Shown here piece by piece: positions 38,594 to 41,294 of a stretch of 64,000 nucleotides of DNA. Positions within the stretch are counted from its first letter, which is position 1. Each line of letters begins with the position of its first letter. The notes under the pieces were generated by a model, which was given only the letters and a program-made list of their open reading frames with translations, was not told where the DNA came from and ran no database searches. Both the position numbers and the translations under genes were made by a program. This stretch comes from Rhodococcus sp. P-2 (GTDB taxonomy: Bacteria > Actinomycetota > Actinomycetes > Mycobacteriales > Mycobacteriaceae): contig NZ_CP066779.1 in NCBI RefSeq assembly GCF_016598535.1, positions 1,364,001 to 1,428,000 on the forward strand, given 5' to 3'.

Positions 38594-39580
38594 TCAAGCC
38601 GACAACGCAGAGTCGAGCATCGGCCAGGAGCGAACGAGTTCGTCGCGCCAGTACGGCCAACCGTGCGTCCCCACCGGTTGAGTGCTGCGGGTGACATCGA
38701 CTCCGCGATCGCGCAACACCTGCGTGATCTGGTCGGTGCACAGGTTCGATCCCAGTTCCATGACCCCGCCGACGACCAGTACACGCCCCAGGGCAGGAGT
38801 GTCGAGAGTTTCGTGCGGGCCTGGCAGTCCAGATCCCGAGGCGAGATACACCTTGGTGCCGCGTAGCTTGTCGGCATTGGCGAAGATGTCGTGCTCTTGC
38901 CAAGCCTCGCTGCCTGCCGGACCCCACATCTGCTCCGAACGGGCATTTCCGTTGACGACCACAAGATCGGTCAACGCCTTGCCGAATCCTCCGACGGTTG
39001 TGTAGCAGCCGCTGTAGCCCGCGACTGCGTCGTACAACCCGGCCGAGCGTTGGGCCAGGATCAGCGCGGCCTCTGCGCCCATCGAGATCCCACCGATTGC
39101 GTTGTGTCCGTTCGTTGCGAACCTCGTGTCGATCAGTGGGGGAAGCTCTTTCGTCAGGAACGTCTCCCATTTCAGACGACCGAATTTCGGGTGATCTTCC
39201 TGCCAATCGGTGTACATGGTGCCTGTTCCACCGATGGGGAGTACGACGTTCACGTTCTTGTCGGCAAAGAACGGGACGATATCGCCGTTAGCCGGGGCCA
39301 ACCAGTTGTTCTCTTCGATCTGCCCGGAATTGCCGTCCAGGAGATACAGCGTCCCGCGCGGTTCCGAGCGGTCGGCAGGAAGCAGTACTTTCACCTGCAT
39401 GGTGCGCCCCATAGCGGGACTCGCGACGTCGAGAAGAACCAAGCGCGAAGACAGTTCGGTGACGCCCGTTATCTTCGGGGTCTCGTCGGCGAGCGCGGTC
39501 GAGGGCAGCGCAAGTAGTGAAATCAAGGCGAGCGCGCCGACGAGCCCTACGCTTCGAAGGCTGGCTCGATGGGACCTCAC
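38594..39580 (-). CDS. Mycolyltransferase (antigen 85/Myt family), second of pair
   Basis: 328 residues from the GTG that overlaps the upstream stop (GTGA); an ATG at 39643 would overlap the first gene by 67 bases. N-terminal signal peptide ending at ALA-DETP. Esterase-D-type alpha/beta hydrolase: nucleophile Ser in GGISMGAEAAL, catalytic His in PVGTHGWPYW, acidic residue in between. Such enzymes move mycolic acids between trehalose and arabinogalactan or proteins. Translationally coupled to its paralogue, downstream of two tiny peptide genes. Confidence 0.88.
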   Translation of the reverse strand: MRSHRASLRSVGLVGALALISLLALPSTALADETPKITGVTELSSRLVLLDVASPAMGRTMQVKVLLPADRSEPRGTLYLLDGNSGQIEENNWLAPANGDIVPFFADKNVNVVLPIGGTGTMYTDWQEDHPKFGRLKWETFLTKELPPLIDTRFATNGHNAIGGISMGAEAALILAQRSAGLYDAVAGYSGCYTTVGGFGKALTDLVVVNGNARSEQMWGPAGSEAWQEHDIFANADKLRGTKVYLASGSGLPGPHETLDTPALGRVLVVGGVMELGSNLCTDQITQVLRDRGVDVTRSTQPVGTHGWPYWRDELVRSWPMLDSALSA

Positions 39581-40581
39581 ACGCCGAGCGACGCGGCGAT
39601 CATCGGCCACGAGTCGTGTAAGTCGTCTTCCCAGTATCCCCATGAATGCGTTCCTGCCGGCTTGAAGTTGTAGCGAATGTTGTTCATACCCAATGCGTTC
39701 GTCCTGTCCGCAAGCTGGGTGGTGCAGTAGTGCGTTGCCGCCTCGATTCCGCCACCGAGAACGAGCTGCAACGCCAAATCTGTGACGTCGTTGCCGATCC
39801 GTGGATCTGCAAGTGTGTCGTACGGACCCGGAATCCCGGTTGCAGTGGTGATGTACATCGGGATGCGAGGTAACTTGTCCGCGTTGACAACCGGATCGTG
39901 AGGCGGCCAGCCGGGACCATCGTACGGACCCCACATGTTCTCCGCGTTACCGCCACCCACTGCAACCACGAGTTTCACGAAGTCCTGACCGATGCCGGGA
40001 CTCGTCATCGCACACCCACTGAAGGACCCGACACTGTTGTACAGCGCGGGCGCCGCCATAGCCAAATCCAGTACCGACGTGCCTGCCATCGACAAGCCTG
40101 CCAGAGCGTTCTCGCCGGTCGTCGCGAACATCGAATCGATTACCGGCGGTAGTTCTTCCGTCAGGAACGTGGTCCACATGTTGACCCCGTTGTTGTTGCC
40201 GGATTTCGCGAGGCCGGGGTCCGGCCGCTCCCAATCGGTGTAGTAGCTGAATGCTCCGCCCAGAGGGGTGACCACGTTGACGTGCTTGTCCGCGAAGAAC
40301 TTCGGCGCATCGGTCCGCACCGACCACGTCGCATCGTCTTTGCCTCCGTCCACTCCGTTGAGTAGGTAGAGCGTCGGAGCGGGCCTCGAGGTATCAGCGG
40401 GCCGCAAGACCTGCAACGGAATGTCGCGCCCCATCGACGGTGAGTACACCGAGATGTCGACCAGCCTGCTGTCCACCGACTGAGCGTGACCCGGTGCCAT
40501 GAGGAGCTGGAGCCCACATACTGCCGTGGCCAACGCCAAGAAGACGCGGAAAACCGTTCGCAAAGCACGAGTCTCGATCAT
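39577..40581 (-). CDS. Mycolyltransferase (antigen 85/Myt family), first of pair
   Basis: 334 residues from the ATG at 40581. Signal peptide then ISVYSPSMGRDIPLQVLRP typical of the family. Nucleophile Ser in LAGLSMAGTSVLDLA, His in PAGTHSWGYWEDDL. FbpA/MytC-type: could transfer mycolate to cell-wall sugars or, as MytC does in C. glutamicum, to Ser of small porin peptides. It starts ~140 bases downstream of two leaderless peptide genes, separated from them by a hairpin. It overlaps the second mycolyltransferase by four bases. Confidence 0.9.
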   Translation of the reverse strand: MIETRALRTVFRVFLALATAVCGLQLLMAPGHAQSVDSRLVDISVYSPSMGRDIPLQVLRPADTSRPAPTLYLLNGVDGGKDDATWSVRTDAPKFFADKHVNVVTPLGGAFSYYTDWERPDPGLAKSGNNNGVNMWTTFLTEELPPVIDSMFATTGENALAGLSMAGTSVLDLAMAAPALYNSVGSFSGCAMTSPGIGQDFVKLVVAVGGGNAENMWGPYDGPGWPPHDPVVNADKLPRIPMYITTATGIPGPYDTLADPRIGNDVTDLALQLVLGGGIEAATHYCTTQLADRTNALGMNNIRYNFKPAGTHSWGYWEDDLHDSWPMIAASLGV

Positions 40582-40677
40582 CCGGGTCACTCTCTTCGGC
40601 AGCGGAACCTTTCGAACGGTACCGGCTGAAAGAGGCAAACCCGACGTGATCGGAAAAACTCGATCCGGTCGACGACG

Positions 40678-40708
40678 AAAGGCTCACGCACCGAGTGCGT
40701 GAGCCTTT
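40678..40708. terminator. Bidirectional hairpin between the peptide and mycolyltransferase genes
   Basis: AAAGGCTCACGCA pairs perfectly with TGCGTGAGCCTTT around a CCGAG loop. It is followed by TTTCGTCG on the minus strand. It would end or attenuate the transcript of the 33-residue peptide gene (stop 40724) before the mycolyltransferase start (40581). Confidence 0.75.
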
Positions 40709-40723
40709 CTCGTCAGACGACGC

Positions 40724-40825
40724 TTACTTGGGCGTAACCGTGCCGCCGCTGAGCGTGGTCAGTGCGTCAACGAGACGCTGACCGAGGTTGTTGACGCTTC
40801 CGATGGCTTCACCGAGAGATCCCAT
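40724..40825 (-). CDS. 33-residue leaderless peptide, strong RBS (PorH/PorA-like candidate)
   Basis: Begins MGSLGEAIGSVNNLGQRL and ends SGGTVTPK. An excellent ribosome binding site (AGGAGG at 40832-40837, 6 bases before ATG) makes it one of the best translated starts in the window. No signal peptide; weakly amphipathic helix, with Ser residues that could be acylated. It is the second of two tandem small genes directly upstream of two mycolyltransferases. By analogy to C. glutamicum PorA/PorH it may be an outer-membrane pore or matrix peptide; analogy only, no sequence identity claimed. Confidence 0.65.
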   Translation of the reverse strand: MGSLGEAIGSVNNLGQRLVDALTTLSGGTVTPK

Positions 40826-40896
40826 GAGTTTCCTCCTGCAGTTTGTCGAAATTGAAGTAACTACACCCGGAGCGGGCGTGGCAATGTCGCGCTGAA

Positions 40897-41022
40897 TTAG
40901 GGGGTGGGGTCTTTGGAGATGGTCTCTACCGATCCCATGAAGGTCTTGAGCAGACCGTCAGCGCTGAACAGTGATCCCAGGCCCTGAACAACAGCGCCGA
41001 GAATTCCTTCCATTGAACCCAT
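40897..41022 (-). CDS. 41-residue leaderless peptide (PorH/PorA-like candidate)
   Basis: Begins MGSMEGILGAVVQGLGSLF and ends ISKDPTP. Preceded by AAGGAG five bases before the ATG. The central part is a hydrophobic amphipathic helix, without Lys/Arg until residue 26; Ser3, Ser17, Ser20 and Ser31 are available for modification. No signal peptide. It shares the MGS start with the next small gene, suggesting an old duplication. It lies 71 bases upstream of the 33-residue gene, likely on the same transcript. Confidence 0.65.
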   Translation of the reverse strand: MGSMEGILGAVVQGLGSLFSADGLLKTFMGSVETISKDPTP

Positions 41023-41093: not shown

Positions 41094-41294
41094 TCTGTAA
41101 TGTATCCGTGACGTGGGTAACAGTAATCATACGAACGACCAGTTGGCAAAGGATTTCGACAATGGGGTCATTATTTCGACTAATAAGGTCTGCTACTGAA
41201 AAAATTCCGGCCAATCGGTCGAATCTGACCAATTCTGTCGCCACATTGATCAACCGCCCCAAATCCTGCGGTTACCCACCAGTAAACTGAAATC

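Follow-up and report, generated by a model that had tools for sequence, protein, structure and literature searches.

Conserved leaderless peptide pairs next to tandem mycolyltransferases in Rhodococcus: probable PorH/PorA-type peptides of the mycomembrane

What are the two very short frames that lie directly upstream of two coupled mycolyltransferase genes in Rhodococcus sp. P-2, and how are they related to these enzymes? This question was addressed by a computational analysis of the whole stretch of 64,000 nucleotides carrying the locus, hereafter called the window, and of related genomes. The results indicate that the two peptides, A1 and A2, are probably mycomembrane peptides of the PorH/PorA type, paired with the Cmt1/MytC-type enzymes MytX and MytY and probably O-mycoloylated by them. 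The features of the locus are collected in Table 1.

Table 1. Features of the peptide-mycolyltransferase locus (positions in the window)
Feature	Position	Strand	Description	Basis or role
A1	40897..41022	-	41 aa, leaderless, MGSMEGILGAVVQGLGSLFSADGLLKTFMGSVETISKDPTP, N-terminus MGSMEGILG	frame, RBS, homologues, pN/pS
A2	40724..40825	-	33 aa, leaderless, MGSLGEAIGSVNNLGQRLVDALTTLSGGTVTPK, N-terminus MGSLGEAIG	frame, RBS, homologues, pN/pS
Hairpin 3' of A2	40677..40709	-	stem 15 bp, loop 3 nt	separates peptide from enzyme genes
MytX	39577..40581	-	ATG start; mycolyltransferase with signal-sequence-like start	Cmt1/MytC-side
MytY	38594..39580	-	GTG start overlapping MytX stop	second mycolyltransferase
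Exchanged block	40755..41013		low identity inside, high in flanks

The two MGS frames and the very good ribosome binding sites described in the original prediction were confirmed, strong sites being present 5' of both A1 (CTCAAGGAGATTCAC) and A2 (CTGCAGGAGGAAACTC). Alignment of the A type with a second, homologous type B (see below) showed that M1, G2, S3, D22, G30 and S31 are invariant among the 27 sequences aligned for A1, and M1, G2, S3, L22, S26 and G27 among the 26 aligned for A2. The pN/pS ratios of the two peptides were 0.30 and 0.29 over 21 loci each of genus g23 (Nocardia), while in the small comparison of genomes G001 and G012 synonymous changes were not in excess (2 to 2 in A1, 2 to 5 in A2). 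Both frames are thus conserved under purifying selection and, judged from their sequences, A1 and A2 are real genes, hitherto unannotated. Searches of Pfam and NCBIfam with the peptides returned no family above chance, the NACHT_sigma and pfkB matches (E about 0.06-0.14) being taken as chance, and a search of solved structures with A1 and the pair-B peptides gave chance matches only. A further MGS frame on the forward strand (41162-41290) was regarded as a side effect of conservation in the DNA upstream, since no such frame is listed for G012.

By inspection, the starts of A1 and A2 have neither a basic n-region nor a long hydrophobic core, in agreement with the lack of a signal peptide noted earlier, and the net charges of the pair are -2 and 0. 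The amphipathic helices originally ascribed to both peptides were retained for A2 only, whose amphipathic moment is reached by 9 of 500 shuffles; that of A1, reached by 69 of 500, is unremarkable, which speaks against the preferred explanation.

The A1/A2 pair recurs in Rhodococcus, Nocardia, Prescottella and Speluncibacter. Fifty genomes outside the genus matched at E <=0.01, and 45 of them were taken in, G057, G335, G366, G379 and G399 being left out since their matches lie inside frames of at least 298 aa; such matches within long open frames in other genera, and a weak A1 match in G010, were regarded as chance. A mycolyltransferase match occurred on the same strand within 350 bp after the last peptide in 42 of the 45 (20/20 and 22/25), and within the same distance in all 33 named loci, whose assemblies are partly those of the former set. 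The three misses were L182 and L183, both weak A1-type matches whose 14 kb of fetched sequence lack a mycolyltransferase, and L180, which has one 4.7 kb off. Within the genus, seven of eight pair-A loci adjoin a mycolyltransferase, the exception being G021, where the 0.8 kb left before the contig end gave no match; 18 of 28 genomes carry neither pair A nor pair B, a point against the preferred explanation. The outcome proposed at the outset as the test of the prediction, namely peptides conserved beside mycolyltransferases and varying like coding sequence, was observed (42/45 genomes, pN/pS about 0.3).

In the 1.1 Mb of fetched loci, MGS frames that encode 28-70 aa and have a ribosome binding site amounted to 0.41 per kb within 2 kb of mycolyltransferases (129 in 312 kb), a figure biased by the choice of loci for their peptides, and to 0.015 per kb farther away (12 in 805 kb, a count that takes in the pair-B peptides). 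Additional MGS peptides are encoded 3' of the enzymes in several g10 genomes. A Pfam scan of four neighbouring genes found no immunity or export gene.

The two downstream genes had been described as mycolyltransferases overlapping by four bases, and both points hold: PF00756 was matched by MytX (E 1.4e-32) and MytY (E 1.8e-31), and the shared bases are 39577-39580 (GTGA). Mycolyltransferases were the best solved relatives of both, with Cmt1/MytC on top (236 bits for MytX, 198 for MytY), followed by PS1 (152 and 168) and the best Ag85 (123 and 96). In all full-length linked enzymes the Cmt1 fragment outscored the PS1 fragment, the latter being the shorter of the two. By score, the linked enzymes are nearer to Cmt1/MytC, which mycoloylates proteins, than to PS1/MytA and Ag85. 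The catalytic Ser/Glu/His triad and the Cys pair of Cmt1 are kept in MytX, in MytY and in 49 of 49 enzymes of the two types. The 272-309 segment, whose region overlaps the putative PorA-binding site of PMC11927696 and which we equated, by assumption, with the extended loop of PMC5310785 section 19, measures 33 aa in MytX and 26 aa in MytY, against 38 in Cmt1 and 25 in PS1. It is extended (33-37 aa) in 29/29 MytX-type enzymes and short (26 aa) in 20/20 of the MytY clade, none of which is extended.

A tree of 74 rows (95 sequences minus 10 double or broken and 13 near-identical ones, plus the Cmt1 and PS1 fragments) separated MytX-type (29 rows) and MytY-type (20 rows) clades with support of 100/98 and 100/100, and all ten unlinked mycolyltransferases of the same genome fell outside them. 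Cmt1 also lay outside both clades, on a long branch weakly placed (83/50) with own6144, own5089 and the pair-B enzymes. Cmt1 scored 230 bits with MytX and 201 with MytY, compared with 272-277 for the pair-B transferases, 270 for own5089 and 265 for own6144; hence these enzymes, and not MytX/MytY, are its closest relatives in the genome. Moreover, both traits are shared by unlinked enzymes: own5089, own6144 and own960 have the long segment as well, and further ones the Cys pair, so that neither sets the linked enzymes apart. The preferred explanation is also weakened by the state of MytX, which is broken in two genomes (G022, G012) and lacking in two more (G015, G023), and by the short, PS1-like segment of its partner MytY.

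The hairpin announced after the peptides was found as listed in Table 1. Among 19 such intervals (the window, its relatives, two pair-B loci and one Corynebacterium porA), 17 contained a stem of at least 11 bp, L124 and L188 being without it. It is viewed as a terminator-like or stabilising element, and it suggests unequal expression of peptides and enzymes.

The same genome encodes the second pair, B, between groEL and ppk2. Profile comparison returned a probability of 94.8% (E 4.9e-8) for A2 and B2 and of 85% (E 6.3e-6) for A1 and B1, and on these profiles the two pairs are homologous. In 9/9 genomes possessing it, pair B is flanked by groEL and ppk2, all on one strand, both B frames being seen in seven, and tandem or single mycolyltransferases occur 4-7 kb off on the opposite strand in all nine. 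This is the location given for Corynebacterium porH-porA in passages of PMC5944148 and PMC3792995; in genus g3, taken as Corynebacterium, porA was found there in 11/11 loci, preceded in nine by a PorH-type frame. No mycolyltransferase was detected in the 16 kb around these 11 porA loci, contrary to what the preferred explanation would favour. GroEL and PPK2 matches were missing from the window and the other pair-A loci except L180 and L181, the latter forming a bridge in which groEL, a WS/DGAT-like gene, an LSGGT peptide and a MytY-clade enzyme follow each other.

Sequence kinship with the corynebacterial porins was not detected: hhalign of the A-type (A5/A6) profiles with PorA/PorH gave probabilities of 0.4-1.4%, B1 with PorH 10.7% (P 0.003, 17 columns) and B2 with PorA 1.3%. 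Similarity being undetectable, the link to PorA/PorH rests on position, architecture and enzyme. The proposal of a PorA/PorH-like system thus gained from the enzyme class, the conservation in several genera and the position of pair B, and found no backing in the profile comparison. In a PorA profile of 10 distinct rows L14-S15 is invariant, S15 being the mapped acceptor site; the candidate acceptor serines, chosen as invariant in the alignments, are S3 and S26 in A2 and S3 and S31 in A1.

Closely related Rhodococcus genomes differ by an exchange limited to the peptide block. Against G001, identity is 64.7% in A2, 42.3% in the spacer and 55.6% in A1, compared with 93-98% in the flanking features, and at the borders of the block lie two conserved motifs, the MGS with which A1 begins and the LSGGT with which A2 ends.

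According to the preferred explanation, the strong ribosome binding sites and the hairpin that follows would lead to production of the peptides in excess over the enzymes. A1 and A2 would cross the inner membrane by the route that PorA/PorH take, and exported MytX or MytY would transfer a mycoloyl group from trehalose monomycolate to a Ser residue within a small, flexible Gly/Ser stretch, the first candidate being the invariant S26 in the LSGG motif of A2, followed by S3 or S31 in A1. Once acylated, the pair would form a hetero-oligomer in the mycomembrane, perhaps a pore, exposed enough for alleles to be swapped from strain to strain.

The closest competitor holds that A1 and A2 are ProtX-like mycoloylated peptides, structural or of the surface coat, that form no pore; attack on their exposed parts, by phages for instance, would account for the swapping of alleles. 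Channels could already come from the two MspA-type porins (PF09203) encoded elsewhere in the genome, only the peptide block is exchanged between close genomes, and the further MGS peptides of genus g10 point the same way. In addition, phage Cog needs mycoloylated ProtX and PorA in C. glutamicum, as reported in part of PMC9671496. However, the gene order and sizes of the pair match porH-porA and pair B occupies its place, so that we consider this alternative rather unlikely, albeit worth keeping in mind.

The pair might instead bind, steer or activate MytX/MytY on lipids or arabinogalactan without being acylated. Sugars are the substrates of other mycolyltransferases, the linkage to two enzyme clades is tight, and the nearest relatives of Cmt1 in the genome are other enzymes. 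Such a cofactor role is nevertheless quite improbable, given the distance and opposite strand of the pair-B transferases, the absence of mycolyltransferase matches in the 16 kb around porA in genus g3 and the unequal expression suggested by the hairpin. Secreted toxin or modulin-type peptides would also be small and leaderless, with an amphipathic stretch as in A2, but the mycolyltransferase linkage, the net charges, the paralogue at the porin locus and the lack of an immunity or export gene among the four scanned neighbours make this very improbable. Finally, chance frames or an untranslated leader or attenuator, favoured by the shortness of the frames, the lack of a known family and the G001-G012 comparison, are hardly credible in view of the pN/pS ratios and the residues kept between genera.

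Returning to the PorH/PorA-type explanation, we regard as an evenly balanced proposition that the pairs represent an unrecognised class of leaderless mycomembrane peptides, counterparts of PorH/PorA in Rhodococcus, Nocardia, Prescottella and relatives, with surface-facing alleles exchanged as ready-made cassettes, most likely driven by phages. As these pairs would be encoded with dedicated protein mycoloyltransferases, protein O-mycoloylation would then be general well beyond Corynebacterium. How far it reaches is stated as an open matter in PMC5310785 section 19, and a passage of PMC11066868 mentions Cmt1 orthologues in Nocardia and Rhodococcus and a modification not shown in mycobacteria. 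Our data suggest that this modification of Corynebacterium proteins may have a wider distribution. The locus places likely substrates beside likely enzymes in culturable organisms. For the mycolata outside Corynebacterium it also supplies a candidate equivalent of PorH/PorA in the matching chromosomal slot, of relevance to the evolution of leaderless porins, and the exchanged cassette gives access to the study of conflict at the surface of the mycomembrane.

Among known systems, a small channel protein of R. erythropolis was reportedly described by Lichtinger et al. in 2000. The MspA-family porins of Rhodococcus and Nocardia, about 200 aa with a signal peptide (according to part of PMC9233653), share with A1/A2 a presumed mycomembrane location, whereas A1/A2 show no resemblance to them; with two such porins in the genome, A1/A2 need not be its general porin. 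ProtX of C. glutamicum, described in passages of PMC9671496 and PMC12632848 as a small mycoloylated protein with no signal sequence and a proposed phage receptor, shares with A1/A2 the small size and this lack. Cmt1/MytC of C. glutamicum (PDB 4H18, 8QHF) has in common with both enzymes the triad and the Cys pair 215/316 and, with MytX only, the extended 272-309 segment; unlike Cmt1, which lies outside their clades and has nearer relatives in the genome, the MytX and MytY genes adjoin their presumed substrates. PorA and PorH differ from A1/A2 in starting with MDL or an ME/MS-type sequence instead of MGS and in being more acidic; furthermore, pair A has its own locus together with mycolyltransferases, and its Rhodococcus host also carries MspA porins. 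Both systems nevertheless consist of two leaderless peptides, roughly 35-60 aa long and encoded in tandem, with a conserved Ser in a Gly/Ser context; a hairpin 3' of the second gene is shared with L254, the only Corynebacterium locus examined for it, and pair B has in common with porH-porA the groEL-ppk2 slot.

The host genome is a single contig of 6.34 Mb, in which the window covers positions 1364001-1428000. The arrangement of the peptide genes A1 and A2 (pair A) and of the two mycolyltransferases MytX and MytY is reported in the table. A divergent 42-aa ORF starting MGSLFRLIRS was also observed in the upstream region (window 41162-41290, +); it was kept in the related genomes G001 and G011, was not listed for G012, and probably arose by chance.

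Features of the pair A locus (window coordinates)
Feature	Position	Strand	Description
A1	40897-41022	-	41-aa peptide
A2	40724-40825	-	33-aa peptide
Hairpin	between A2 and MytX	-	15-bp stem
MytX	39577-40581	-	mycolyltransferase
MytY	38594-39580	-	mycolyltransferase; shares GTGA with MytX
Flank, one side			AlkZ-like glycosylase and fumarase
Flank, other side			3-dmu-9_3-mt-domain protein and periplasmic binding protein

On sequence grounds, A1 and A2 are genes. The original prediction had proposed these small frames as peptide genes, and both their conservation and a coding pattern were found in relatives. Across 21 loci each of the genus Nocardia (g23), the mean uncorrected pN/pS was 0.30 for A1 and 0.29 for A2, calculated on the pairs with pS under 0.6 (189 and 199, respectively). 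Between the window and G022, synonymous changes outnumbered non-synonymous ones 8 to 2 in A1 and 3 to 1 in A2, while the small G001-G012 comparison gave no synonymous excess (2 to 2 in A1, 2 to 5 in A2). Of the 28 genomes in the genus group, 8 had an A1 match with E no higher than 1e-3, and the same 8 showed pair A by profile search; that search detected neither pair A nor the second peptide pair of this genome, pair B, in 18. The profile search of 401 genomes of the family returned A2-type matches in 55 and A1-type matches in 57 at E 0.01 or better, in 8 of 31 genera each, some of the weak matches being due to chance. A set of 298 genomes of the order, family members among them, yielded 8 hits, all belonging to this family and spread over 3 of 77 genera.

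Loci for the linkage count were chosen on peptide similarity only. A mycolyltransferase match started within 350 bp 3' of the last peptide, on the same strand, in 20/20 and 22/25 out-of-genus genomes (two sets), and the same spacing, with A1 present, occurred in all 33 named loci, a set overlapping the out-of-genus genomes and comprising Nocardia, Rhodococcus spelaei, oryzae and maanshanensis, Speluncibacter jeojiensis and Prescottella subtropica (one contig scan). The association of the peptides with mycolyltransferases holds across several genera. Within the genus, a mycolyltransferase lay downstream in 7 of 8 pair A loci; in G012 and G022 the nearest downstream enzyme was a broken MytX, the intact MytY starting about 0.7 kb away. 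The host genome encodes 14 mycolyltransferases, and MGS peptides occur within 1.5 kb only for the two in the window; pair B has another tandem mycolyltransferase pair 4.4 kb away. In four Nocardia loci (L137, L187, L191, L192) the A1/A2 pair was duplicated in tandem, with a maximum of three pairs ahead of one enzyme. Additional MGS peptides (e.g. MGSIADIL..., MGSLADL...) were observed 3' of the mycolyltransferases in the Prescottella-like genus g10 (L132, L134, L136, L138-L140), and the peptide family is wider than A1 and A2.

The best solved match of both MytX and MytY, and likewise of a relative in genus g22, was Cmt1/MytC, the protein mycoloyltransferase of C. glutamicum, and full-length linked enzymes scored higher with the Cmt1 fragment than with that of PS1 throughout. 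In the tree, 29 rows grouped as a MytX clade (100/98) and 20 as a MytY clade (100/100); both clades contain several genera, and all 10 unlinked enzymes of the host genome fell outside them. The segment in whose region lies helix 11, on which PorA has been modelled (PMC11927696, in excerpt), measured 33-37 aa in MytX-type, 26 in MytY-type, 38 in Cmt1 and 25 in PS1. Cmt1 itself was placed outside both clades, weakly grouped with the pair B enzymes and the unlinked own5089 and own6144, and scored 261-286, 270 and 265 bits with these, respectively, versus 230 with MytX and 201 with MytY; the long segment also occurs in three unlinked enzymes of the genome. The position and scores of Cmt1 and the occurrence of the long segment in unlinked enzymes count against a simple reading of the linked enzymes. 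G022 and G012 carry a broken MytX and G015 and G023 none, and all four kept MytY. Since the peptides and MytY are intact beside the broken MytX in L050 (G022) and L046 (G012), MytX appears dispensable in some strains.

Compared with G001, A2, the spacer and A1 were 64.7, 42.3 and 55.6% identical versus 93-98% for the flanking features, the differing block extending from about 40755 to 41013; G012 behaved likewise (64.7, 43.7 and 57.1% versus 92-95%). The opposite was observed with G011, where the cassette was 99-100% identical and the flanking genes 91-96%, and G022 gave no contrast (peptides 92-96%, flanks 92-95%). Judged from these identity contrasts, the cassette is exchanged between strains. 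The 46-aa metagenome protein P0006, from a 1152-bp contig, carries the N-terminus of one A1 allele and the body of the other, and looks like a recombinant of both types or an assembly artefact. That phages might drive the exchange is a guess, its one support being the requirement of C. glutamicum phage Cog for ProtX and PorA (PMC9671496, in excerpt).

Pair B, first met through a weak A2 match, consists of two peptides, B1 of 61-63 and B2 of 47-48 residues. When the A rows and the B rows were placed in separate profiles, their comparison gave a probability of 94.8% (E 4.9e-8, 37 columns) for A2 and B2, the latter found by likeness to A2, and of 85% (E 6.3e-6) for A1 and B1, the latter found by place; these profiles show the pairs to be homologous. 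The gene 3' of B2 is ppk2 (PF03976, E 4e-102, L041), and groEL lies upstream, past WS/DGAT genes, one of which was run against Pfam and the others assigned by inspection; the genome has two groEL genes, and we infer which one corresponds to 'groEL2'. Two such genes occupy L040 10734-13809, one of them Pfam-checked, and a similar gene occurs at L181. The order groEL, pair B, ppk2 on one strand was present in all nine genomes with a pair B match, both frames occurring in seven and B2 only in G023; in G022 (L044) the frames were damaged, groEL and ppk2 being retained. In genus g14, L181 carries in series groEL, a WS/DGAT-like gene, an LSGGT peptide and a MytY-clade enzyme, and L180 carries groEL, three peptides (MGS, MLEGSV, MGS), a prolyl-oligopeptidase-like gene and a MytX-clade enzyme, the WS/DGAT-like and prolyl-oligopeptidase-like genes being assigned by inspection.

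We found no report of peptides of this kind outside Corynebacterium in the portion of the open-licence PMC literature covered. Genus g3 was taken as Corynebacterium because PorA matches occur there (11 of 121 genomes). All 11 loci showed the order groEL-porA-ppk2, with a PorH-type frame ahead of porA in 9, as published for Corynebacterium (PMC5944148, PMC3792995, in excerpts), and none had a mycolyltransferase near porA. The C. jeikeium porin gene was likewise found by this position, sequence search having given an unclear answer (PMC3792995, in excerpt). Profile comparison detected no sequence homology to PorA/PorH. This result and the finding of no mycolyltransferase near porA count against the parallel between the place of pair B and that of porH-porA. 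The export route of PorA/PorH is described as unclear (PMC12632848, in excerpt). Mycoloylation sites are reported in flexible Ser/Gly-rich stretches with no strict motif (PMC11066868, in excerpt), and the mapped site of PorA is S15 (PMC11927696). In PorA L14-S15 is invariant, and the invariant S26 of A2, within (L/A)SG, recalls it.
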